Assembly: GCA_948144175.1 (NCBI GenBank)
Contig: CANXME010001258.1
Span: forward strand, 3,829,001 to 3,893,000
Source of the DNA: Closterium sp. NIES-65
Taxonomy: Eukaryota; Streptophyta; Zygnematophyceae; Desmidiales; Closteriaceae
Direction of reading: 5' to 3'
Length of the DNA stretch: 64,000 nucleotides
Of this stretch, positions 24,901 through 41,965 are shown one piece after another; position 1 is the first letter of the stretch; each line of letters begins with the position of its first letter. The notes below the pieces were generated by a model. That model was not told the origin of the DNA. It saw only the letters and a program-made list of their open reading frames with translations, and made no database searches. Made by a program: the position numbers and the translations under genes.

Positions 24901-25955
24901 CCGGTGTTTCGCTTTTTTGATGCACCTCCAACCACCAAGGCGGACTCCTCCCGTTTCGTCTTTCCACGAGGGCTACTCTCTTTCGCCACCACTTTCTCCA
25001 CCACTTTCTCCTTACCCTTAGCCATGGCGACAGCATGTCTCCCTGGAGGTGGCTTAGCCGGAACCTTAGAGGGTCCTGAACGCGACTGTGCTTTCGCACC
25101 CTTTCCAGCGAGCTTCGAGCTAACAACAGGTTCCTGGATCTCATCAAGTGCCTTCAGCTTCCCAAGCAGCAAAGCTCGTTCCTCTGCCACAGCCTCATCC
25201 TCCACGGCATCACCTTCACTGTCATCCTGCTCTTCCAGCATCTCGTCAAAGCTTGTTTTTTTCGTGACCTCAGGCTTATGAGCATCCGCGCAGGCAGGCA
25301 TTTCCGCCGTACCGTTTTTCTCATTCCTCTCCACTGCCTCCTCCTCATCCCCCTGCTCATCGTCCGACTCTCCACCCTCCTCGTCCGACGGCTCGTCCCC
25401 GGACTCATCTTCCAACTCATTGCCGGACTCCCCACCCTCTTCATCCTCCGCCTCCCCATCTTCCTCTTCCTCCGCCTCTTCCTCCGCCTCTTCCTCCGCC
25501 TCTTCCTCCGCATTTTCCTCCTCATCTTCCTCCGCATCCTCCTCCGCCTCGTGTGGAGCCTCGTGCTCAGCCTCGTGCTCAGCCTCATCCTCACCCTCAT
25601 CCTCAGCCTCGGCCTCAGCCTCGTCCTCAGCCTCGGCCTTGTCTCCCGCCTTGCCGTTGGCCTCTGCCTCGTCCAAATTGTCGCCCTGTCGTTTGTTCCG
25701 CGCAGCTGTAACAGGTTCAGCGTCTTCTTCGGTAGCATCCGCACCTTCTGCGTACCACACTCTCACCTTTCGAGGGCGGTTGGACTTGCGAATATCGCCC
25801 CCAGGTGGGCCCTCACCGCTAGATGACCTGGATTTCGGCTGACCGACAGTTCCCTTTTTCTTCGTAGTCTGCTTGACCTTGCTGGGAGATCGTGCCGAGA
25901 CACCTTTGGCAGAGTTTTTCTTCCCAGACTTCGAGACCTGCAGTTTAGTCGACAT
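21960..25955 (-). CDS. Multi-exon gene of unknown function with an acidic, basic-flanked N-terminal half
   Basis: I do not recognise this protein. Exon 1 (25955 to 24779, starting MSTKLQVSKSGKK) encodes a Lys-rich N-terminus, then a long Glu/Asp/Ala low-complexity stretch (about 25690-25330) and a Lys/Ala-rich tail, suggesting a nuclear or chromatin-associated protein. It ends at a GT donor in phase 1. Exon 2 (about 24431 to 24070; PKDFGAAPPVKVLSLATKRF...) and exon 3 (23018 to 22667; ELARRVATHLCFNIE... to ...EELIERYKDG) join in matching phase. Further coding blocks lie at about 22499-22354 (IPFGSLIFSVSIKLALARRG) and 22222-22000 (FEWPILNNAPDGKLSGKWEY), but phases there do not resolve and the second block switches frame internally. 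The 3' end is not found. Introns carry minisatellites. The upstream ATG at 26075 is less likely because its extra residues look non-coding. Confidence 0.6.
23130..24035 (+). repeat. ~95-bp intronic minisatellite with telomere-like core
   Basis: About nine degenerate units of about 95 bp inside the intron between 24069 and 23019 of the minus-strand gene. Each unit has the order gacctggatggggaagcaag, then ggggtttagggttgagg, then gaggggcaggcaggcag, then gggagtcagggtttaggt. The ggtttaggg core repeats the plant telomere heptamer TTTAGGG once or twice per unit without forming a true telomeric run. Confidence 0.8.
24430..24665 (+). repeat. Degenerate gggatgggag / gacgggag intronic minisatellite
   Basis: Irregular repeats of agggatgggag with interspersed gtgacgg or gtgacag blocks, filling the first intron (24778 to about 24432) of the minus-strand gene. 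Confidence 0.6.
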
Positions 25956-26079
25956 TATGCAGACAGGGCCAGAGAAAATCGGGAAACGCTGGGAAACTCT
26001 AACGTAACAAAGTATATCGGTTTGCACTGTGGATTGGTAAGTGCTACTAGTGTCAAAACATGTCTTCGGAAACATTCAG

Positions 26080-27430
26080 GAGATGCAGAAATGAGCCATC
26101 ATTTAGGAACCGAAAACGTACAGCGTGTTCCGGTCGCGGTCACTTGACGGGTCGGGTACTCAGAGTTTGAAGCAGCCCGATTCGGGAACGGGCGCTTTCT
26201 ACGCGACCCACTTATAACGATTTGGTATGGACTTTCAGTCGGCGCGGCTTGACTCCCGGAAAGAAACTGGACGTGGGTGATACTAGGGAGGCCCTAAAAG
26301 CTACTATGTTCGCAGAGGGTAAGGCTGTACGTGGCGCTATGATACGTGCCATTCTGAGAGGCCGTCATAAACGGACGGAACAGGATATCGTGGAAGCGAG
26401 AGGTCGATTATGTTTGCATAGGAGAGTCGCGTGGGTCGCGGTTCGACCATGTCAGAGGTAAGTCGCTGGGAAAAGCGGGGGAAAAACTGTCTTGCGGTGC
26501 CGAAGGAAAGACGCCCTCGTGAAGGTGTTGGTCTTTAAGCGTCGTGACTGCTTGGCGAACGGTAGCAGAGGACCAGAGAGTCGTGAGAGATGATGGTGGC
26601 AGAGGAACTGCTAGGCGTGACCGTGGGCTGGGGTTCATGGCGGTTGATGATAATGTTGGTTTGATACAGTACAAAACGTCGACAGTGGCCAGCACCACAT
26701 GGCAGAATTGTGGTTTGCGTGGCAGCTTTGTGGTTTGTGCGGCAGGGCAGCTCTGTAGTTTTCATGGCAGCTTGATGGGTGCTTGGCAATGTGGCAGTAC
26801 AGTGCAGAACAGTAAAGTTCCGAACTGACCCTAGGAGTAGTGGTAGGAATTTCGCAACGGTCCACTGACCCTATCAAGGTAGAACTACTTCTCGTCACAT
26901 CCCGTCACTTAGCCTGCAATTGGCAATCGGCGCACCTGGAGATGACCCTTTGGTAAACCGAAAACCTGGAGATTCTGACAACCAGATGTCACAGGCCTCG
27001 ATACGACCAACAGACATACCCCCGTGCCCAGCGATCCAAAAATTGCAGCCAGAATCTGCTCTGATACTGATTCGGCTCTGCACAATGGCCACTAGCATTA
27101 TTTCAACGGGTTCTCTTAGACAGTTCGGGACCCATCCAAATTTGATAGTACACCTGATGTATTTGCATGCACAAGATCTAACATAACTGTGCACTTTTTT
27201 TATCTGTTGAATACTTGTGAGTTTTGATTGTAATTGACAGGGTTCCCAATATGCCAATCACGTCCCAACAGGTGATTCTCATCAAGGAGCAACCTTTCAT
27301 CCATTTACATGCTACATAGAGTCTTGCAAGTTGAAATGATACTGTGGAAGCTCTAGTGGCGAGGAATCTTGTTGTTGACTAGATTCAGTATAAAGCTTAA
27401 ACTCTTTAAGCATCCTAGTATTAAAGTTCC
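26080..27430. other. No gene recognised
   Basis: Between the start of the minus-strand gene and the satellite. A few frames of 60-120 residues exist, but none shows a domain, splice continuity or biased composition. It may contain the promoter of the minus-strand gene, but no motif can be defended. Confidence 0.4.
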
Positions 27431-27440
27431 TATTGGTATC

Positions 27441-29340
27441 AGGAGCCTCCCATCCCAAAATGGGCTTCGCCAGAGCACTTTTGGTTGGTCGTTTGACAAA
27501 CGTGCTAGCCTAAGGCTGATATGTACAAGTTCTGGGCAGGCCTATGGGGAAAAGCGTCGATTGATAGCATATACATTTTGGATTGGGCTGAGCTCCTAGG
27601 AGGATGTTACTAATATTATCAGGAGCCTCCCATCCCAAAATTGGCCTTGCCGGAGCACGTTTGGTTGGTCGTTCGACAAACGTGCTGCCTAAGGCTGCTC
27701 TGTACAAGTTCTGCGCAGGCCTGTGGGGAAATGCGTCGATTGATAGCGTAGGCATTTTGGATTGAGCTTATTCTTTGTGTGGTGGAGATAGTTAGTTCTA
27801 TGAACCTCCCATCTCAATCTCAGCTCCTGCGGAACATTCTAGAATGGTTGTTTGGAAGATGAGCTAGTTTAGCTGATTTTGCTGAGATTTCCGCTGCCTT
27901 ATGGGGCAAGGCATGACTACCTGCCCGCCACATATTGGATTGAGCTAATTATTTGTGTGTTGACTCTAGTTGGTGCTATGAACCTCCCATCCCATTCTCA
28001 GCTCCTGCAGAGCACCCTAGGTTGGTTGTTTGGAAAATAAGTTAGTTCAATGATTTCACTGCGTTTTCCGCTGCCTTTTGGGGCAAGGCACGATTACCTA
28101 CCGGCCAAATATTGGATTGACCTGATTCTTTGTGTGGTGACTCTAAGTAGTACTGTGGACCTTTCACCCCATTTTCAGCTGCTGTGGAACATTCTAGAAT
28201 GGTTGTTTGGAAGATGAGGTAGTATAGCTGAGATGGCTGCGATTTCCGCTGCCTTATGGGGCAAGGCATGATTATCTGCCAGCCACATATTGGATCGAGC
28301 TGATTCTTTGTGTGGTGAATCTAAGTAGTGTTGTGGACCGGTGTCCCCATTTTCAGCTCCTGCGGAGCACTCTAGGTTGGTTGTTTGGAAGATGAGCTAG
28401 TTTAGCTGATTTTGCAGCGATTTCCGCTGCCTTATAAGGGAAAGGCATGATTACCTACCCGCCAAATATTGGATTGACCTGATTCTTTGTGTGGTGACTC
28501 TAAGTAGTACTGTGGACCTTTCACCCCATTTTCAGCTGCTTCGGAACATTCTAGAATGGTTGTTTGGAAGATGAGCTAGTATAGCTGAGATGGCTGCGAT
28601 TTCTGCTGCCTTATGGGGCAAGGCATGATTATCTGCCGGCCACATATTGGATCGAGCTGATTCTTTGTGTGGTGACTCTAAGTAGTGTTGTGGACCGGTG
28701 TCCCCATTTTCAGCTCCTGCGGAGCACTCTAGGTTGGTTGTTTGGAAGATGAGCTAGTTTAGCTGATTTTGATGCGATTTCCGCTGCCTTATGGGGCAAG
28801 GCATGATTACCTGCGAGAGTTTATTGGATCGAGCTGATCCTTTGTGTGGTGACTCTAAGTAGTACTGTGGACCTTTCACCCCATTTTCAGCTGCTGCGGA
28901 ACATTCTAGAATGGTTGTTTGGAAGATGAGCTAGTTTAGTTGATTTTTATGCGATTTCCGCCGCCTTTTGGGGCAAGGCACGATTACCTGCCGGCCACAT
29001 ATTGGATTGAGCTGATTATTTGTGTGGTGACTCTAAGTAGTGCTGTGGACCTTCCATCCAATTTTCAGATCCTGCGGAGCACTCTAGGTTGGTTCTTTGG
29101 AAGATGAGCTAGTTTAGTTGATTTTTATGTGATTTCGCCGCCTTTAGGGGCAAGGCACGATTACCTACCAGCCAAAGATTGGATTGATCTTATTCTTTGT
29201 ATGGTGACTCTAATTAGTGCTGTGGACCTTCCATCCAATTTTCATCTACTCGGAGCACTCTAGGTTGGTTGTTTGGAAGATGACATAACACGCAGGACTG
29301 TACTGCGATTCAGGCCGTCATATGGGGCAAGGCCTGATTT
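27441..29340 (+). repeat. ~178-bp satellite, about 11 monomers, partly in alternating dimers
   Basis: Tandem monomers with starts near 27441, 27621, 27801, 27981, 28157 and onward (spacing 176-180 bp). Two monomer types alternate through the central part. Type A has gaacattctagaatggttg and type B has gcactctaggttggttg, giving a higher-order dimer of about 355 bp. The first two monomers are a diverged variant. The length is close to that of a nucleosome repeat and of many plant centromeric satellites. No coding content. Confidence 0.85.
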
Positions 29341-29914
29341 CCTATCCTAGACGATATTAGTCCAATAGTCAGTAGTCAGTAGGTTTGGTTAAATGAAACC
29401 ATGGTTACAAATTTCTTGATCGTAGGTTCAGTAAATATTTTTGTTCAATTCTATAAACGGCACATTTTGTTATGCATACGTCTTATCACTTATGTGCACA
29501 CCAGGGCTCGTATACAGTGTTGTGTCTAAAACGTGAATAGCATCGCATTTGACTTTCGAGAGTTTGAAGTCGTGGTATGAGGCACAGGGAATCAGGCACT
29601 GCATGCACACACCAACCCTATCCTGAAGGCTGCAAACCTAATTTCATCAAGGTTCCTGATCCGCCTCATCGTGATTCGTGTATTGCATCTCATATCGTGC
29701 CCCCAGGTCGCGCCGTCAGCGACTCGTCGTAATCACATGGCTGTCGCGCCTCTAGCTAGCTCGCACTGTAGCGTTATTTCCCGTCACGATGTCCATCCGC
29801 TACCTTATACTGAATGGCCTTCTCGCTATTCATCGACTCTTTGTAGCGGGTGCGTATTCAAACGCCACGGCGATATGCAGAGGCAAAGGAACGACGGACT
29901 AATGTCGCGCTACC
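29341..29914. other. No gene recognised; upstream flank of the transposase gene
   Basis: Mixed-composition sequence between the satellite and the transposase start codon. No terminal inverted repeat of the element could be identified by eye. If the element is complete on its left, its end should lie here. Confidence 0.35.
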
Positions 29915-32900
29915 ATGGATCGTTCTAGTCCTGTTCGGTGTGCACACTGTGAACGAGAGTTTCCAGACTATTTCGCGCTAGGAAGGCACCGGGCTGGCAA
30001 CACACCCTGCAACCCCAACTATGCAGAGCATCGCGCAGGCAGTGTTCCTAGGCGCCCTAACATAGCCTACATTGTGCCTGCATCGCTCCCGCGCTTCGTC
30101 AGACATGGCAGTTCCGCGCCTCAAGATGCAACTCAGGAGACACTGCCAGCCTCGTCTAGTGGCGTGGGCTGTGAGAGTCGTGTTGATCCTGAGGGATCTT
30201 CTCCACATCCCTCAACGCCCCAGTCATCCAGCCAAGGGACGGAGCAGCCCCCAACCACATGTCCAGATAATCCTGGATCCGACCCCGCTGCCAGGCCTTC
30301 GTTTCCCGATGGCAGCGACATCCATCCCGCTTTGATACACCTGTTAGAGCAACTCGATTCGCTGAATGGCGGCATGGGCTTATCCAACATGGATACTAAC
30401 AAGGTGCTGCAGCTAATTATCCATCCAGAGTTGGCCCCGCTGCTGGTAGAGGGGAATGCCCGTAGCTTCCGGGATGTGGAGAGGGTGCAGAAGGAATATC
30501 TAGCTGACACGGGACGTGGATTCGAGTTGACCACATTTTATGTGGAGGGCTTTCCACCGCAAGTGATGCTTCACCGCGATCCACTGAGGGTGAGTTTGAT
30601 GACGTAGTTTCGGGTACCCGGGATGAAACTGAAGGGCATTGGCTTGACAGTTTGTCCTGGCGGCATCATGCGTCACTCTCGTACTGTGTAGGGTGCTAAC
30701 CGGCTTGTGTACGTGCTGTATATGATATTGCAGGCCCTGGCGGATATGTTTCGGCACAAGCACAATGCGCCTGGCTTCAGAATGGGACCGAGGAGAGACA
30801 AGGACACCGAGGGTGGGCATCGGGCATATTCCACTGCAGAAACTGGCACATGGTGGCAAGAAGCACAGGTGAGTGCTATTGATAGCTATTTGCAGTTGCG
30901 AGAGATGGTGAGTGATGAGAGGGGAGGTGCAGAGATTGTGAGTGATGGGACGGGAGGTGCAGAGATTGTGAGTGCAAGGTGATGGGTAGTTTACACTCCC
31001 CTCACATCACTCGCACCTTGCATATGTTCCAAACCTACCACTCACCATGCATGGTCCCGGCTTTCAGCTGGTGTGCCCTTTTTGAGTCAGCAATGTTTAC
31101 CGCCCAGAGACATTGCCTTTCCCCTTGACCCAATCCATCCATTCTTTGCGTTATGTGCAGGAATTCATTGGCATGGACAAGATTGTTGCGGCGCTGATAC
31201 TATACAGTGATGTCACGCACTTGAGCAACAACGGAAGGAAGAAGGCGCACCCGGTCATGATGACACTGGGGAATATTGCATTCCCAAAACGCTGGGGGCG
31301 GCCTGGGCACTCCCTGCTGGAGCTGTTACCCATCCCACCCTCGAATATGCCGTCGCACTTGAAGGTGGAGCTCTACAACGCGTGTATTGCTAAGCTACTT
31401 GAGCCACTTCTCCGCCTTAAAGACAAGTGAGTGGTGCAAATGCTGGTGTTTATTGAAACTTTATCTATTTGGTGAGTCATGCCCCATAAAAGGAGTGCGG
31501 CACTTGGAAGTAATGAATATTGTTAACCTGCATGTGTTTTCACCCTGTGTCATGGCTGCCCGAAAACTGTGCAGTGGTGTCATGCTGCTAGACTCAGAAG
31601 GCATCGAGCGATGGGTCGTTCCTTTGCTTTACGCTTGGGCTTGTGACTATCCCGAGTCCGGGAAACTGACATGCACCAAATCTGGCCAGGGCTGCATAAA
31701 GCCGTGCAGCCTCGGCTATGTCGACAGGGTACGTCAACATGTACACTCTGGGTGGGGATGTGCTAGGATGGGAGGTGCTGGGATGGCGATGGTGAGTGAT
31801 AGTATGGTGAGTGATGGGATGGTGAGTGCTGGGAGGGTGAGTGCTGGGACGGTGAGTGCTCGTATGTTGAGTGATAGTATGGTGAGTGATGGGATGGTTA
31901 GGGCTGGTATGCTGAGTGCTAGGATGGTGAGGGATGGGAGGGTTAGTGCTGGGATGGTGAGTGCCCAGATGGTGAGTGCTGGGATGGTGAGTGCTGGGAT
32001 GGTTAGTGCTGGGATGGTGAGTGCTGGGATGGTGAGTGATGGGATGGTTAGTGCTCGGATGCTGAGTGCTGGGATGGTGAGTGATGGGATGGTTAGTGCT
32101 GGGACGGTGAGTGCTGGGATGGTTAGTGCTGGGATGGTGAGTGCTGGGGTGGTTAGTGCTGGGATGGTGAGTGCTGGGATGGTGAGTGCTGGGAGGGTGA
32201 GTGCTGGGATGGTGAGTGATGGGATGGTTAGTGCTGGGATGGTGAGTGCTGGCATGGTGAATGCTGGGATGGTGAGTGATGGGATGGTGAGTGCTGGGAT
32301 GGTGAGTGCTGGGATGGTGAGTGCTGGGAGGGTGAGTGCTGGGATGGTGAGTGATGGGATGGTGAGTGCTGGGATGGTGAGTGCTGGGACGGTGAGTGCT
32401 CGTATGTTGAGTGATAGTATGGTGAGTGATGGGATGGTTAGGGCTGGTATGCTGAGTGCTAGGATGGTGAGGGATGGGAGGGTTAGTGCTGGGATGGTGA
32501 GTGCCCAGATGGTGAGTGCTGGGATGGTGAGTGCTGGGATGGTTAGTGCTGGGATGGTGAGTGCTGGGATGGTGAGTGATGGGATGGTTAGTGCTCGGAT
32601 GCTGAGTGCTGGGATGGTGAGTGATGGGATGGTTAGTGCTGGGACGGTGAGTGCTGGGATGGTTAGTGCTGGGATGGTGAGTGCTGGGGTGGTTAGTGCT
32701 GGGATGGTGAGTGCTGGGATGGTGAGTGCTGGGAGGGTGAGTGCTGGGATGGTGAGTGATGGGATGGTTAGTGCTGGGATGGTGAGTGCTGGCATGGTGA
32801 ATGCTGGGATGGTGAGTGATGGGATGGTGAGTGCTGGGATGGTGAGTGCTGGGATGGTGAGTGCTGGGAGGGTGAGTGCTGGGATGGTGAGTGATGGGAT

Positions 32901-35900
32901 GGTGAGTGCTGGGATGGTGAGTGCTGGGACGGTGAGTGCTCGGATGCTGAGTGCTAGGATGGTGAGTGATGGGATGGTTAGGGATGGGATGGTGAGTGCT
33001 AGGATGGTGAGGGATGGGATGGTGAGTGATGGGATGGTTAGTGCTGGGACGGTGAGTGCTGGGATAGTGAGTGCTAGGATGGTGAGTGCGGGTATGGTGA
33101 GTGATGGGATGGTGAGTGCTGGGATGGTGAGTGCTGGGACGGTGAGTGCTGGGATAGTGAGTGCTGGGATGGTGAGTGCGGGTATGGTGAGTGATGGGAT
33201 GGTTAGTGCTAGGATGGTGAGTGCTGGGATGGTGAGTGATGGGATGGTTAGTGCTGGGATGGTGAGTGCTGGGATGGTGAGTGCTGGGATGGTGAGTGAT
33301 GGGATGGTTAGTGCTGGGACGGTGAGTGCTGGGATAGTGAGTGCTGGGATGGTGAGTGCGGGTATGGTGAGTGATGGGATGGTTAGTGCTGGGATGGTGA
33401 GTGCTGGGATGGTGAGTGATGGGATGGTTAGTGCTGGGATGGTGAGTGCTGGGATGGTGAGTGCTGGGATGGTGAGTGATGGGATGGTTAGTGCTGCGAC
33501 GGTGAGTGCTGGGATAGTGATTGCTGGGATGGTGGGTGTTGGTATGGTGAGTGATGGGATGGTTAGTGCTGGGATGGTGAGTGCTGGGATGGTGAGTGCT
33601 GGGAGGGTGAGTGCTGGGATGGTGAGTGATGGGATGGTTTGTTCTTGGATGGTGAGTGCTGGGATGGTGAGTGCTGGGAGGGTGAGTGCTGGGATGGTGA
33701 GTGATGGGATGGTTAGTGCTTGGATGGTGAGTGCTGGGATGGTGAGTGATGGGATGGTGAGTGCACGGATGGTTAGTGCTGGGATGGTGAGTGACGGATG
33801 GTGAGTGCTGGGATGGTGAGTGATGGGATGGTGAGTGCCCGGATGGGGAGGGAGGAATGTGCTGTGGTGGGGAGGAGGGCTGGGAAGTGCTGGGATCAGG
33901 AGTGCAAGCCTCGAACCCTCTGCGATGTCGACCGGGCATATAATCATGCGCCATCTGCAATCTTGGCTGTGAACATTTCATCTCTGTATATGTGTGTGTC
34001 TAACGGTCTCTCTTGCTCGTCCCCTTTATGCTAAAAATTCCAACGCCCACCACAGGAAAGCCTGTCATCTGTGGAGCTACCCAACAACGTTCGCACACCC
34101 GCACAACAGCAGTGGGTTAGAGACGAGGCAGCTGGAGTCCCTGCCGGAGCGGATGACAATCCGCTGAAGTTGTACTCAACGTTCGACATCGACGTAAGTA
34201 TTTGATCCCATGGCAGCTGGAGTCGCCCAGTAGGCTCATAGACACAGCAACCTCTGGTGTCTATTGGTGTCGTGTGTTTCCCTAACCATCGCATTCCCTG
34301 CTGCGCTGTACCACCTGCACAGTGTGCTTTATGGAAGTGGCAGGTTGGTTCATTGCCGTGGGGAAATCCAACCCTAGCTGTCATGGCGGACATCATGCAC
34401 CAGGCAGACCTGGGGATGCTGGACCACATCGTGCAATGCACCAGGCAGACCTGGGGATGCTGGACCACATCGTGCAATGCACCAGGCAGACGTGGGGATG
34501 CTGGACCACATCGTGCAATGCACCAGGCAGACCTGGGGATGCTGGACCACATCGTGCAATGCACCAGGCAGACCTGGGGATGCTGGACCACATCGTGCAA
34601 TGCACCAGGCAGACCTGGGGATGCTGGACCACATCGTGCAATGCACCAGGCAGACGTGGGGATGCTGGACCACATCGTGCAATGCACCAGGCAGACGTGG
34701 GGATGCTCGACCACATCGTGCAATGCACCAGGCAGACGTGGGGATGCTGGACCACATCGTGCAATGCACCAGGCAGACCTGGGGATGCTGGACCACATCG
34801 TGCAATGCACCAGGCAGACCTGGGGATGCTGGACCACATCGTGCAATGCACCAGGCAGACCTGGGGATGCTGGACCACATCGTGCAATGCACCAGGCAGA
34901 CCTGGGGATGCTGGACCACATCGTGCAATGCACCAGGCAGACCTGGGGATGCTGGACCACATCGTGCAATGCACCAGGCAGACCTGGGGATGCTGGACCA
35001 CATCGTGCAATGCACCAGGCAGACCTGGGGATGCTAGACCACATCGTGCAATGCACCAGGCAGACGTGGGGATGCTGGACCACATCGTGCAATGCACCAG
35101 GCAGACCTGGGGATGCTGGACCACATCGTGCAATGCACCAGGCAGACCTGGGGATGCTGGACCACATCGTGCAATGCACCAGGCAGACGTGGGGATGCTG
35201 GACCACATCGTGCAATGCACCAGGCAGACCTGGGGATGCTGGACCACATCGTGCAATGCACCAGGCAGACCTGGGGATGCTGGACCACATCGTGCAATGC
35301 ACCAGGCAGACGTGGGGATGCTGGACCACATCGTGCAATGCACCAGGCAGACGTGGGGATGTTGGACCACATCGTGCAATGCACCAGGCAGACCTGGGGA
35401 TGCTGGACCACATCCTGCAATGCACCAGGCAGACGTGGGGATGCTGGACCACATCGTGCAATGCACCAGGCAGACGTGGGGATGCTGGACCACATCGTGC
35501 AATGCACCAGGCAGACCTGGGGATGCTGGACCACATCGTGCAATGCACCAGGCAGACCTGGGGATGCTGGACCACATCGTGCAATGCACCAGGCAGACCT
35601 GGGGATGCTGGACCACATCGTGCAATGCACTAGGCAGACCTGGGGATGCTGGACCACATCGTGCAATGCACCAGGCAGACCTGGGGATGCTGGACCACAT
35701 CGTGCAATGCACCAGGCAGACGTGGGGATGCTGGACCACATCGTGCAATGCACCAGGCAGACCTGGGGATGCTGGACCACATCGTGCAATGCACCAGGCA
35801 GACCTGGGGATGCTGGACCACATCGTGCAATGCACCAGGCAGACCTGGGGATGCTGGACCACATCGTGCAATGCACCAGGCAGACGTGGGGATGCTGGAC

Positions 35901-38900
35901 CACATCGTGCAATGCACCAGGCAGACCTGGGGATGCTGGACCACATCGTGCAATGCACCAGGCAGACGTGGGGATGCTGGACCACATCGTGCAATGCACC
36001 AGGCAGACCTGGGGATGCTGGACCACATCGTGCAATGCACCAGGCAGACCTGGGGATGCTGGACCACATCGTGCAATGCACCAGGCAGACCTGGGGATGC
36101 TGGACCACATCGTGCAATGCACCAGGCAGACCTGGGGATGCTGGACCACATCGTGCAATGCACCAGGCAGACGTGGGGATGCTCGACCACATCGTGCAAT
36201 GCACCAGGCAGACGTGGGGATGCTGGACCACATCGTGCAATGCACCAGGCAGACCTGGGGATGCTGGACCACATCGTGCAATGCACCAGGCAGACTTGGG
36301 GATGCTGGACCACATCGTGCAATGCACCAGGCAGACCTGGGGATGCTGGACCACATCGTGCAATGCACCAGGCAGACCTGGGGATGCTGGACCACATCGT
36401 GCAATGCACCAGGCAGACCTGGGGATGCTGGACCACATCGTGCAATGCACCAGGCAGACCTGGGGATGCTGGACCACATCGTGCAATGCACCAGGCAGAC
36501 CTGGGGATGCTAGACCACATCGTGCAATGCACCAGGCAGACGTGGGGATGCTGGACCACATCGTGCAATGCACCAGGCAGACCTGGGGATGCTGGACCAC
36601 ATCGTGCAATGCACCAGGCAGACCTGGGGATGCTGGACCACATCGTGCAATGCACCAGGCAGACGTGGGGATGCTGGACCACATCGTGCAATGCACCAGG
36701 CAGACCTGGGGATGCTGGACCACATCGTGCAATGCACCAGGCAGACCTGGGGATGCTGGACCACATCGTGCAATGCACCAGGCAGACGTGGGGATGCTGG
36801 ACCACATCGTGCAATGCACCAGGCAGACGTGGGGATGTTGGACCACATCGTGCAATGCACCAGGCAGACCTGGGGATGCTGGACCACATCGTGCAATGCA
36901 CCAGGCAGACGTGGGGATGCTGGACCACATCGTGCAATGCACCAGGCAGACGTGGGGATGCTGGACCACATCGTGCAATGCACCAGGCAGACCTGGGGAT
37001 GCTGGACCACATCGTGCAATGCACCAGGCAGACCTGGGGATGCTGGACCACATCGTGCAATGCACCAGGCAGACCTGGGGATGCTGGACCACATCGTGCA
37101 ATGCACTAGGCAGACCTGGGGATGCTGGACCACATCGTGCAATGCACCAGGCAGACCTGGGGATGCTGGACCACATCGTGCAATGCACCAGGCAGACGTG
37201 GGGATGCTGGACCACATCGTGCAATGCACCAGGCAGACCTGGGGATGCTGGACCACATCGTGCAATGCACCAGGCAGACCTGGGGATGCTGGACCACATC
37301 GTGCAATGCACCAGGCAGACCTGGGGATGCTGGACCACATCGTGCAATGCACCAGGCAGACGTGGGGATGCTGGACCACATCGTGCAATGCACCAGGCAG
37401 ACCTGGGGATGCTGGACCACATCGTGCAATGCACCAGGCAGACGTGGGGATGCTGGACCACATCGTGCAATGCACCAGGCAGACCTGGGGATGCTGGACC
37501 ACATCGTGCAATGCACCAGGCAGACCTGGGGATGCTGGACCACATCGTGCAATGCACCAGGCAGACCTGGGGATGCTGGACCACATTGTGCAATGCACCA
37601 GGCAGACCTGGGGATGCTGGACCACATCGTGCAATGCACCAGGCAGACCTGGGGATGCTGGACCACATCGTGCAATGCACCAGGCAGACCTGGGGATGCT
37701 GGACCACATCGTGCAATGCACCAGGCAGACGTGGGGATGCTGGACCACATCGTGCAATGCACCAGGCAGACCTGGGGATGCTGGACCACATCGTGCAATG
37801 CACCAGGCAGACCTGGGGATGCTGGACCACATCGTGCAATGCACCAGGCAGACGTGGGGATGCTGGACCACATCGTGCAATGCACCAGGCAGACCTGGGG
37901 ATGCTGGACCACATCGTGCAATGCACCAGGCAGACCTGGGGATGCTGGACCACATCGTGCAATGCACCAGGCAGACCTGGGGATGCTGGACCACATCGTG
38001 CAATGCACCAGGCAGACGTGGGGATGCTGGACCACATTGTGCAATGCACCAGGCAGACGTGGGGATGCTGGACCACATCGTGCAATGCACCAGGCAGACC
38101 TGGGGATGCTGGACCACATCGTGCAATGCACCAGGCAGACGTGGGGATGCTGGACCACATCGTGCAATGCACCAGGCAGACCTGGGGATGCTGGACCACA
38201 TCGTGCAATGCACCAGGCAGACGTGGGGATGCTGGACCACATCGTGCAATGCACCAGGCAGACCTGGGGATGCTGGACCACATCGTGCAATGCACCAGGC
38301 AGACCTGGGGATGCTGGACCACATCGTGCAATGCACCAGGCAGACCTGGGGATGCTGGACCACATCGTGCAATGCACCAGGCAGACCTGGGGATGCTGGA
38401 CCACATCGTGCAATGCACCAGGCAGACCTGGGGATGCTGGACCACATCGTGCAATGCACCAGGCAGACGTGGGGATGCTGGACCACATCGTGCAATGCAC
38501 CAGGCAGACGTGGGGATGCTGGACCACATCGTGCAATGCACCAGGCAGACGTGGGGATGCTGGACCACATCGTGCAATGCACCAGGCAGACCTGGGGATG
38601 CTGGACCACATCGTGCAATGCACCAGGCAGACCTGGGGATGCTGGACCACATCGTGCAATGCACCAGGCAGACCTGGGGATGCTGGACCACATCGTGCAA
38701 TGCACCAGGCAGACCTGGGGATGCTGGACCACATTGTGCAATGCACCAGGCAGACCTGGGGATGCTGGACCACATCGTGCAATGCACCAGGCAGACCTGG
38801 GGATGCTGGACCACATCGTGCAATGCACCAGGCAGACCTGGGGATGCTGGACCACATCGTGCAATGCACCAGGCAGACCTGGGGATGCTGGACCACATCG

Positions 38901-41900
38901 TGCAATGCACCAGGCAGACGTGGGGATGCTGGACCACATCGTGCAATGCACCAGGCAGACCTGGGGATGCTGGACCACATCGTGCAATGCACCAGGCAGA
39001 CCTGGGGATGCTGGACCACATCGTGCAATGCACCAGGCAGACGTGGGGATGCTGGACCACATCGTGCAATGCACCAGGCAGACCTGGGGATGCTGGACCA
39101 CATCGTGCAATGCACCAGGCAGACCTGGGGATGCTGGACCACATCGTGCAATGCACCAGGCAGACCTGGGGATGCTGGACCACATCGTGCAATGCACCAG
39201 GCAGACGTGGGGATGCTGGACCACATTGTGCAATGCACCAGGCAGACGTGGGGATGCTGGACCACATCGTGCAATGCACCAGGCAGACCTGGGGATGCTG
39301 GACCACATCGTGCAATGCACCAGGCAGACGTGGGGATGCTGGACCACATCGTGCAATGCACCAGGCAGACCTGGGGATGCTGGACCACATCGTGCAATGC
39401 ACCAGGCAGACGTGGGGATGCTGGACCACATCGTGCAATGCACCAGGCAGACCTGGGGATGCTGGACCACATCGTGCAATGCACCAGGCAGACCTGGGGA
39501 TGCTGGACCACATCGTGCAATGCACCAGGCAGACCTGGGGATGCTGGACCACATCGTGCAATGCACCAGGCAGACCTGGGGATGCTGGACCACATCGTGC
39601 AATGCACCAGGCAGACCTGGGGATGCTGGACCACATCGTGCAATGCACCAGGCAGACCTGGGGATGCTGGACCACATCGTGCAATGCACCAGGCAGACCT
39701 GGGGATGCTGGACCACATCGTGCAATGCATCCGCGCCCAACACCTAACGATGATGAAAATTCTGGATTTGTGAGTGCCCCTTGGACCACCCGCCTGGACA
39801 TGCACAATGCTCTATTCAATAAACCATGGCTACAATGTTGGCATGTCAAGCCCACATTTGTGAGCACATGGTAGTGTGTCAGCTCAATTTTATTCCATCC
39901 TGATCTGCCGCCCCCCATATCCGAAATCTTTCCATCACACCATACGTAGGCGTCTTCTACGGCTCACCCTGGAAACACGGATCAACTCTTTGCGTTTTCC
40001 GAAGAGCGAATACTTCAAAACCGGGGCACAAGTCGCAGCTTTTGAACATCGATCGGTCATGCAGGTATGATGCTTTGAGGCCTAAACCATGGAGTGGTGG
40101 AAGGGGGAGGGTGGGAAGAGTGGGGCGAGCTGGGCAGGGACGGAAGAGGAAGGGGAGAGAAGATGGGCTGGTGGAGAGGGCACTGCTATGTTGATTCATG
40201 CAAATGTAGTGATGTGACGGTCTGTTGTTAAGCTCGTCTGTAAACTCGCTTGAAGTCATTCATGGGAAGAAGATCCTTCAATCTTTTCTCTCACCTTTCC
40301 TACTCACCATGCTGCATGCATCCAGGTGATGATCTTTTTGGTGGCTGACGTTGTCGGCTCGCCCCAGCTGGAGGCCATCAGAGCATACCTTGACTGGTAT
40401 CTCTGCTGCAACGCCGCCTCTCACACCGAGAGAAGTCTTTCCGAACTACAAGCCAAATCAACAAGGTACCTTACCAAACGATACAACCTAAACCATCTAA
40501 CTCCCCTAGCGATTCCATCCCTAACACATTGAACGCTTATCCATATACTCCTTCATTTATTCATGCTCCCACCCATCCCAGGCTGGTGAAACTACTCACG
40601 ACTGCCTTCCCCGAGCAGAAATCAAAGTGGAACCTCATCAAAACACACTTGATGACTCATTTCATCCCTGGAATTTGACGAGCTGGGAATGTGCAAGAGT
40701 ATAGCACCAACCTCTTCGAACACCTGCATAGCACCTTGCTGAAGCAAATCTACAGGAGATCGAATAAGCGGAAAGTGGACACGCAGATCATGAAGCACCA
40801 CGAGATGAAGCTTGACTCCATCAGCAACGTGGCCACCGACCAAGGCGTACAAACGGCTATGCAAAAGGTAGGTTCTGTGAGAGGAGGTGCTGAGATGGCG
40901 AGTGCGGTGATGGGAGGGTGAGTGCTGAGATGGTGAGTGCGGTGATGGGAGGGTGAGTACTGAGATGGTGAGTGCGGTGATGGGAGGGTGAGTGCTGAGA
41001 TGGTGAGTGCGGTGATGGGAGGGTGAGTGCTGAGATGGTGAGTGCGGTGATGGGAGGGTGAGTGCAGAGAAGGTGAGTGCGTTGATGGGAGGGTGAGTGC
41101 GGTGATGGGAGGGTGAGTGCTGAGATGGTGAGTGCGGTGATGGGAGGGTGAGTGCTGAGATGGTGAGTGCGGTGATGGGAGGGTGAGTGCTGAGATGGTG
41201 AGTGCGGTGATGGGAGGGTGAGTGCTGAGATGGTGAGTGCGGTGATGGGAGGGTGAGTGCGGTGATGGGAGGGTGAGTGCTGAGATGGTGAGTGCGGTGA
41301 TGGGAGGGTGAGTGCTAAGATGGTGAGTGCGGTGATGGGAGGGTGAGTGCTGAGATGGTGAGTGCGGTGATGGGAGGGTGAGTGCTGAGATGGTGAGTGC
41401 GGTGATGGGAGGGTGAGTGCAGAGAAGGTGAGTGCGGTGATGGGAGGGTGAGTGCGGTGATGGGAGGGTGAGTGCTGAGATGGTGAGTGCGGTGATGGGA
41501 GGGTGAGTGCTGAGATGGTGAGTGCGGTGATGGGAGGGTGAGTGTTGAGATGGTGAGTGCGGTGATGGGAGGGTGAGTGCTGAGATGGTGAGTGCGGTGA
41601 TGGGAGGGTGAGTGCTGAGATGGTGAGTGCGGTGATGGGAGGGTGAGTGCAGAGAAGGTGAGTGCGGTGAGTAGGAGTGCCAGGCGGGACAGCTCGGGCT
41701 GAGTGGCAAGGAAAGTTTGCTGGCAGGTCCTTGGTGGGTAGCAGGGGAAGAGTTAGCTCAGGGCAGGAGAGGGGGCAGTGAAATGAGGAAGTGCAGGGCA
41801 GGGAGTGGAGCAAGGGAAGGGGGAGAATGGTGTGCTTGTTGCTGCTGGTTGCTGCGATTCAGAGATTTGTTTCCAATCTCTGCCTTTTCTGACACGTGTC

Positions 41901-41965
41901 AGGCCATCGAGGATGGAGCTCGGGTGATGGTGAAGGAGTCCCACTTCTTCCCCGTGAATCACGAA
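29915..41965 (+). CDS. Plavaka-like (KDZ superfamily) DNA-transposon transposase, ten exons, interrupted at its 3' end
   Basis: Exons (all GT-AG): 29915-30589, 30734-30868, 31161-31426, 31575-31728, 34056-34193, 34323-39769, 39950-40063, 40326-40465, 40582-40867 and 41903 to about 41965. Phases match at every junction through exon 9. The start encodes a zinc finger (CAHCEREFPDYFALGRHRAG). Exons 2-4 carry the Plavaka-type blocks GTWWQEAQ, LYSDVTHLSNNGRKKAHPV followed by GNI (candidate first Asp), and CDYPESGKLTCTKSG (candidate second Asp). Exon 6 has ADIMHQADLGMLDHIVQ. Exon 8 has SHTERSLSELQ, and exon 9 has EYSTNLFEHLHSTLLKQIYR. Family members move DNA by cut and paste. Exon 6 is enlarged by a 41-bp array (separate entry) that leaves TAG at 35631 and 37107 in the transposase frame, and exon 9 has TGA at 40676. 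The gene therefore looks inactive. Its 3' end abuts a Copia fragment. Confidence 0.75.
30869..31160 (+). repeat. Intron 2 of the transposase gene with incipient GTGAGTG repeats
   Basis: Starts at the donor gtgagtgct. Between about 30905 and 30985 it has three loose copies of ggtgcagagattgtgagtg-type units, resembling a short early form of the arrays in introns 4 and 9. It ends at the acceptor gtgcag before 31161. Confidence 0.6.
31790..33850 (+). repeat. 15-bp intronic minisatellite built on GGTGAGT (about 137 units)
   Basis: Fills most of intron 4 (31729-34055) of the transposase gene. The consensus unit is ggtgagtgctgggat, with variants gtgat, ggtta and gggac. The unit length is a multiple of three and lacks stops. 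This produces an apparent 805-residue frame on the plus strand and two long His/Thr/Pro frames on the minus strand, all rejected as genes. A block of 540 bp (36 units) is duplicated in tandem without visible difference: 31861-32400 equals 32401-32940 over the first 525 or more bases. Confidence 0.9.
34395..39724 (+). repeat. 41-bp tandem array, 130 units, inside transposase exon 6
   Basis: Consensus unit atgcaccaggcagacctggg plus gatgctggaccacatcgtgca plus a boundary a, 41 bp. From the first atgca at 34395 to the final atgca at 39725 is 5,330 bp, exactly 130 x 41, so there is no net indel. Two main unit types differ at one base (gacctgg or gacgtgg, Leu or Val in the transposase frame). Rare single-base variants mark higher-order copies. 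Because 41 is not a multiple of three, all three forward frames read the same circular 41-residue peptide, and the reverse strand gives one other, so both strands look open throughout. The 129 extra units add 5,289 bp, a multiple of three. Confidence 0.97.
40875..41675 (+). repeat. 35-bp intronic minisatellite built on GGTGAGTGC (about 22 units)
   Basis: Lies just inside the 5' end of intron 9 of the transposase gene (donor at 40868). The unit is gggagggtgagtgctgagat plus ggtgagtgcggtgat, so each contains two GGTGAGTGC motifs. Shorter 20-bp units occur where the ctgagatggtgagtg half is missing, for example near 41095 and 41260. Apparent minus-strand frames rich in Ser/Pro/His/Thr are by-products. 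Confidence 0.9.

Follow-up and report, generated by a model that had tools for sequence, protein, structure and literature searches.

In the model of minisatellite birth of Haber and Louis (1998), as excerpted from PMC3389668 and PMC6947457, a unique motif lying between direct repeats of 5–10 bp becomes the unit, and the array later grows by slippage, conversion or unequal exchange. Transposons, too, can supply the unit of a tandem repeat, according to PMC6947457, the Tetris paper (PMC4079207) and the CACTA survey (PMC8978399). Here we describe a tandem array inside a transposase exon of a Plavaka-type transposon in Closterium sp. NIES-65, found in a 64,000-nucleotide stretch (the window; assembly GCA_948144175.1, contig CANXME010001258.1, forward-strand positions 3,829,001 to 3,893,000; all coordinates below are those of the window unless a locus is named). 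The array is a young, local minisatellite and not a spreading satellite. Our favored explanation, which we hold to be likely, is that a duplication between two 5-bp repeats founded it, that it grew in a dead element, and that a second array in another copy of the same transposon was born separately.

The array and its single-unit relatives

The array, its borders and the exon that holds it are as follows.

34395-39724, + strand: 41-bp tandem array, 130 copies of ATGCACCAGGCAGACCTGGGGATGCTGGACCACATCGTGCA (by Tandem Repeats Finder, by cutting into units, and by a count of 129 junctions)
34395-34399, + strand: left ATGCA, the 5-bp direct repeat bounding the ancestral unit, kept in 15 of 15 single-unit relatives
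39725-39729, + strand: right ATGCA, a partial 131st unit, intact in the second array copy (L011, below) and in 6 of 15 single-unit relatives
34323-39769, + strand: Plavaka exon containing the array, 5,447 bp in the window copy as compared to 158 bp in the 15 single-unit relatives

A preliminary description of this DNA, made from its letters alone, had placed the array at 34395-39724 as 130 units of 41 bp and had noted an ATGCA at both 34395 and 39725. Both readings hold: Tandem Repeats Finder (score 10299, 98% matches) and unit cutting give exactly 130 × 41 bp and then a leftover ATGCA, a length and regularity far beyond chance. There are 10 unit types, with the consensus in 83 of the 130 units, a single C>G at position 16 in 33, and eight rarer types making up the other 14. 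The exon is bordered by an acceptor side ending in CACAG before 34323 and by GTGAGT after 39769; exon borders were located in all 16 fetched copies (L011–L026; up to 2 mismatches in the acceptor search, up to 1 in the donor search), and the exon of L011 measures 486 bp.

Searches were run over the whole assembly (874 Mb in 2,400 contigs, one assembly). Light-harvesting (PF00504) and GRAS (PF03514) domains occur in this genome and would point to a streptophyte green lineage. The tandem junction GACCACATCGTGCAATGCACCAGGCAGAC, with up to 2 mismatches, matched 137 times and its reversed control not once. All 137 matches fall at two loci, 129 in the window (C1255) and 8 in L011 on C1817, a second copy of the same transposon carrying a 9-unit array with the same unit and borders. 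A search with the left flank and the beginning of the unit, allowing up to 3 mismatches, gave 18 places, namely the window, L011, 15 copies with a single unit (L012–L026), and a distant Plavaka locus on C2049 (L033). Among the 17 family copies that we examined (the window, L011 and L012–L026), one unit is thus present in 15 and an array in two. Matches inside arrays were left out of the copy listing, and those inside five repeat stretches out of another comparison. When the exon protein was compared with the genome (best 150 of 1,091 candidates), matches broke off at residue 42 in the two array copies only, the others reaching residues 49–53.

Seven of the single-unit copies (L012–L018) have a unit that matches the array consensus at every letter. 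A second ATGCA follows it in L012–L017, including L015, the nearest relative of the window copy; L018 has ATACA in its place, and in the other eight copies the unit ends GTGGTGTGCA, without a second ATGCA. The exon carries a motif, DIMH..DLG...HIV, that is at least 90% conserved per column in 21 loci with 19 distinct peptides, one match per locus (20 loci picked from the best 150 of 1,091 exon-protein candidates, plus C2049), and the 41-bp unit therefore overlaps a conserved transposase motif, as had been proposed. The further proposal that the array originated from one such motif bounded by a 5-bp direct repeat is borne out by single-unit exons in 15 of 17 copies and the junction in the other two only. 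The opposite pattern, with arrays at many places unlinked to the transposase, was not found, as both loci lie inside the transposon. Calling the array a satellite, as the preliminary description did, is too strong for a junction present, genome-wide and at up to 2 mismatches, at two loci of this one transposon. A spreading satellite was also considered in its own right and was ruled out by the junction search.

History and growth of the two arrays

The flanks of the window copy are closer to those of the single-unit copy L015 (left 98.5%, right 99.1% identity) than to those of the 9-unit copy L011 (left 96.6%, right 97.7%). Trees were built from 16 copies, with C2049 left out of all of them and L017, whose distal left flank could not be aligned, left out of the concatenated ones; in a trimmed tree, left-flank columns beyond −500, at the edge of an intron array, were dropped. 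The trees pair the window copy (WIN) with L015 (97/96 and 97/95), and a clade of WIN and L011 is rejected (approximately unbiased test, p-AU 0.0005; 0.0013 after trimming). The right flank alone resolves the pair (95/89), and three sites (−445, −23 and +106) are common to WIN and L015 alone, of which −23 and +106 are close to the array. The fewest state changes on the tree amount to two gains. Because the tree pairs WIN with a one-unit copy and rejects the two-array clade, two births of the 41-bp array are the simplest history, and we infer that these births were independent. The end branch of WIN measures 0.0037 changes per column (trimmed tree), so the array is young if it was born on that branch.

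Several points weigh against this history. Trees of the left flank by itself leave the pairing of WIN and L015 unresolved. Site +952, a CpG C>T change that gives a TGA at 40676, is common to WIN and L011 alone and is the sole character found that would speak for shared ancestry of the two array copies or for gene conversion linking them; one or two exclusive sites are also shared by six other non-sister pairs of copies. A seed of a few units could have moved from one copy to the other in a conversion tract lying between −23 and +82, and a loss back to a single unit may be an alternative history. The exon of L015 contains six direct-repeat pairs of at least 5 bp at 15–80 bp spacing, the ATGCA pair included; the five others mean that reuse of the same pair was not forced, and its use twice is thus a mild surprise if the births were independent. 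Arrays are found in 2 of 8 copies with an intact 5-bp pair and 0 of 9 without, a difference that is not significant (Fisher p ∼0.2, by hand). Finally, the basis is one assembly, in which a second allele was not found at the window locus.

The main alternative is a single birth. Under this history, the subfamily's ancestor would have acquired the array, or a seed of two units, and most of its descendants would have fallen back to one unit; or gene conversion would have handed a short seed from copy to copy. Tandem duplications do revert, both arrays have an identical unit and identical borders, and the TGA at 40676 is common to the two. However, a single birth needs four exact collapses (L014, L012/L016, L018 and L015) as compared to two gains, the sites at −23 and +106 link WIN to L015 alone, and the only unit variant common to the arrays is a C>T in the CpG at position 36. 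We therefore regard a single birth as unlikely, and return to two separate births for what follows.

Growth within the window array has left two pairs of repeated blocks.

34682-36075 and 36158-37551, + strand: large block duplication with a 36-unit shift, 2 differences in 1,394 bp, one in-frame TAG in each copy
37593-38453 and 38782-39642, + strand: second block duplication with a 29-unit shift, 0 differences in 861 bp

In the first pair, units 8–41 recur as units 44–77, a 34-unit run (up to 2 unit mismatches); when unit order was shuffled 300 times, runs averaged 16 units and never exceeded 22. In the second, units 79–99 recur as units 108–128, and the run of 24 units barely exceeds the shuffle maximum of 22. 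At least one large block duplication has taken place in the array, and probably a second. The preliminary description had the units homogenize, which is borne out in part only; they are indeed alike, but their likeness comes mainly from the youth of the array plus the large block duplications.

If the array was born between the ATGCA repeats, its first duplication would be the product of slippage at the two repeats or of unequal exchange between them, and from two units on, more slippage and unequal exchange, large block duplications included, would have brought it to 130 units. The copy on C1817 would have had a separate start of the same kind and now stands at 9 units. Repair synthesis may also have been the molecular step. 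As the window copy is a dead Plavaka element, growth would have been neutral mutation in unconstrained DNA.

Two other origins bear on the same evidence. Rolling-circle amplification, which would copy one or more units from a small circle and reinsert them into the exon, could account for 83 identical units in 130, but the array has expanded precisely between the two 5-bp repeats of the single-unit state, the 9-unit array has the same borders, and no single higher-order period runs throughout the array, in which long repeated runs occur at the 36- and 29-unit shifts only; we consider it quite improbable. We give slightly less credence still to an assembly artifact affecting the copy number or the array itself, which the near identity of the blocks (2 differences in 1,394 bp and 0 in 861 bp) might suggest: unit variants outside the blocks are in irregular order, the second array, at C1817, has variants of its own, and 3.8 Mb of the contig precede the window. 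Because the blocks are nearly identical, the exact number of 130, taken from one assembly, could be off by one block. The junction between the element and the Copia-type sequence beyond it was found once in the assembly, and a second allele that might differ in array length was thus not found.

Coding capacity and the host element

The remaining features of the element are listed here.

29906-30604, + strand: first exon region of the Plavaka element, with a weak C2H2 zinc-finger-like stretch (E 0.056, below cut-off)
31089-31700, + strand: upstream Plavaka transposase exons, by profile matches to PF18759
34056-34195, + strand: exon directly upstream of the array exon, with approximate borders set by eye
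40676-40678, + strand: TGA stop in the downstream exon, shared with L011 only
41958, no strand assigned: break-off point of the window copy, after which Copia-type sequence follows

Together, the 129 added units make up 5,289 bp, a length divisible by three, and the exon frame is kept, just as first described. The TAG codons reported at 35631 (unit 31) and 37107 (unit 67) are likewise real and in the exon frame; they lie 1,476 bp, or 36 units, apart, and both are one variant unit in the two copies of the first duplicated block. It follows that this block duplication most likely came after the frame had closed. Among the 16 of 17 copies whose exon was readable, the TGA at 40676 is present in the window copy and L011 only, and by flank alignment the seventeenth, L014, is without it. 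A different stop in the same exon is shared by L012 and L016. With the two TAGs, the TGA at 40676 and the break at 41958, no reading frame stays open through the array to the end of the gene; the locus does not qualify as a translated tandem-repeat protein, and the window element is dead. The preliminary description had already taken the TAGs to argue against full translation. In L011, the 8 added units total 328 bp and shift the frame. The consensus unit is free of stops in all six frames, and the openness of the array is therefore uninformative on selection.

Frame keeping had been allowed to be a sign of selection, but an array that is under selection to stay in frame and encodes a long repetitive protein is extremely improbable, for the frame preserved by the 129 added units has one chance in three of arising anyway, the six-frame openness belongs to the unit itself on both strands, a TAG stands in both copies of a block most likely duplicated later than the stop, a TGA lies at 40676, the element is cut at 41958, and the other array, on C1817, is 328 bp out of frame.

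The element is a Plavaka by its transposase, of which the match at 31089-31427 (E 3.2e-10, 40.2 bits) is above the PF18759 cut-off of 26.3; a second match, at 31366-31700 (E 5.2e-5), is under it. A Pfam scan of the array exon by itself matched no family, so the name rests on the neighboring exons together with the conserved exon motif. Across the genome, PF18759 gave at least 133 matches, from 123 of 1,397 candidates scored, and members of this intron-split family are absent among the matches listed. A quick inverted-repeat scan of three sequences yielded only short candidates of 16–29 bp and no clear terminal pair. Between the window copy and L015, 29903-30607 is 98.4% identical without gaps, and 34050-34200 is identical. 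L015 and L014 share ∼1.2 kb past the point matching 41958, a continuation for which the window gave no match: when 1,450 bp of it from L015 were compared, the window matched up to 41958 only. Beyond that point is a Copia-type reverse transcriptase on the opposite strand (RVT_2, E 1.7e-19). The nearest relative, L015, is damaged too, at a different place from the window copy.

Tandem repeats are common elsewhere in the family. At least one minisatellite with GTGAGT-bearing units is present in 17 of 17 copies within the stretch examined, and these arrays differ greatly in length, from 129 to at least 3,301 bp; their placement in introns was judged by eye in the window. With intron-type arrays in 17 of 17 copies and exon arrays in 2 of 17, the Plavaka family appears array-prone and the exonic array a rare case. 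In the window, the intron minisatellites lie at 30901-30974, 31788-33850 and 40887-41667, have units of 15, 30 and 35 bp, and start ∼18–60 bp past the 5′ splice site (by eye); the splice-donor core GTGAGT is part of their sense-strand units, which show a strong G skew (0.73–0.88). L015 (L027 around 5283) is missing the stretch matching 31614-31787, exon end and splice donor included, which L014 and L011 retain. Its 15-bp intron array has its start within that exon, which shows that such arrays can encroach on exon sequence.

It is possible, though we would put it no higher than a tentative suggestion, that arrays are born repeatedly at the exon motif, where one and the same 5-bp pair would have seeded the 41-bp array at least twice, in a family whose 17 copies all carry minisatellites with splice-donor-like units, most likely intronic. 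If so, the Plavaka elements of this genome would give rise to minisatellites, with excision-gap repair or G-rich transcribed introns as conceivable routes.

Other repeats and neighbors were also observed. A 178-bp tandem repeat of ∼8.6 copies lies upstream of the transposase, at 27437-29283, and arrays of 178–179 bp units are present in L024 and L025. Long minisatellites occur near other Plavaka loci (31 bp × 52 at L033 1-1615; 30 bp × 74.5 at L034 4360-6595). At L011 5096-5195, a 48-bp stretch is exactly duplicated (2.1 copies), a very young tandem duplication. Four copies of subfamily 2 on different contigs (L019, L020, L023 and L026) are identical over the compared flanks, which may point to recent movement or to duplicated haplotypes. 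The upstream region 25366-27422 is common to the window and L014, and partly to L011; it holds a lysine- and acid-rich minus-strand reading frame near 25957 (by eye) and may be a second gene of the element.

Comparison with known systems

Minisatellites seldom preserve the first step of their birth. In this family, 15 relatives still have the single unit, the closest of them ∼1% diverged, and the arrays of 9 and 130 units have exactly the borders predicted by the 5-bp repeat model. A conserved coding motif can thus turn into a 5-kb array within a functionless element, and the locus lends itself to counts of birth, growth and frame effects. The transposase exons match Plavaka (PF18759); what is particular here is a coding part split by introns, minisatellites in those introns, and a broken window copy. 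Searches of an open-license library for a minisatellite in a transposase exon listed no paper that, judged by title or abstract opening, describes one. The cases of transposon-derived repeats named in the available sections of PMC6947457, PMC4079207 and PMC8978399 involve SINEs, LINEs, LTR elements, MITEs, a Helitron and a foldback element; unlike those, the present array is inside a transposase exon and still within its element.

The likeness to the Haber–Louis model, in the form in which it is excerpted, lies in a single unit flanked by a 5-bp ATGCA pair in L012–L017, in array borders that are that same pair, and in the presence of the single-copy state in 15 of 17 family copies. Within this one genome, the block duplications bear indirectly on length change by slippage or unequal exchange. 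The incomplete last unit (ATGCA) fits both this model and another minisatellite model alike, as it is only 5 bp long. Unlike the Haber–Louis cases given in those excerpts, this locus has its single-copy state on view in 15 relatives, its unit comes from a conserved motif of a transposase exon, and the process seems to have started twice.

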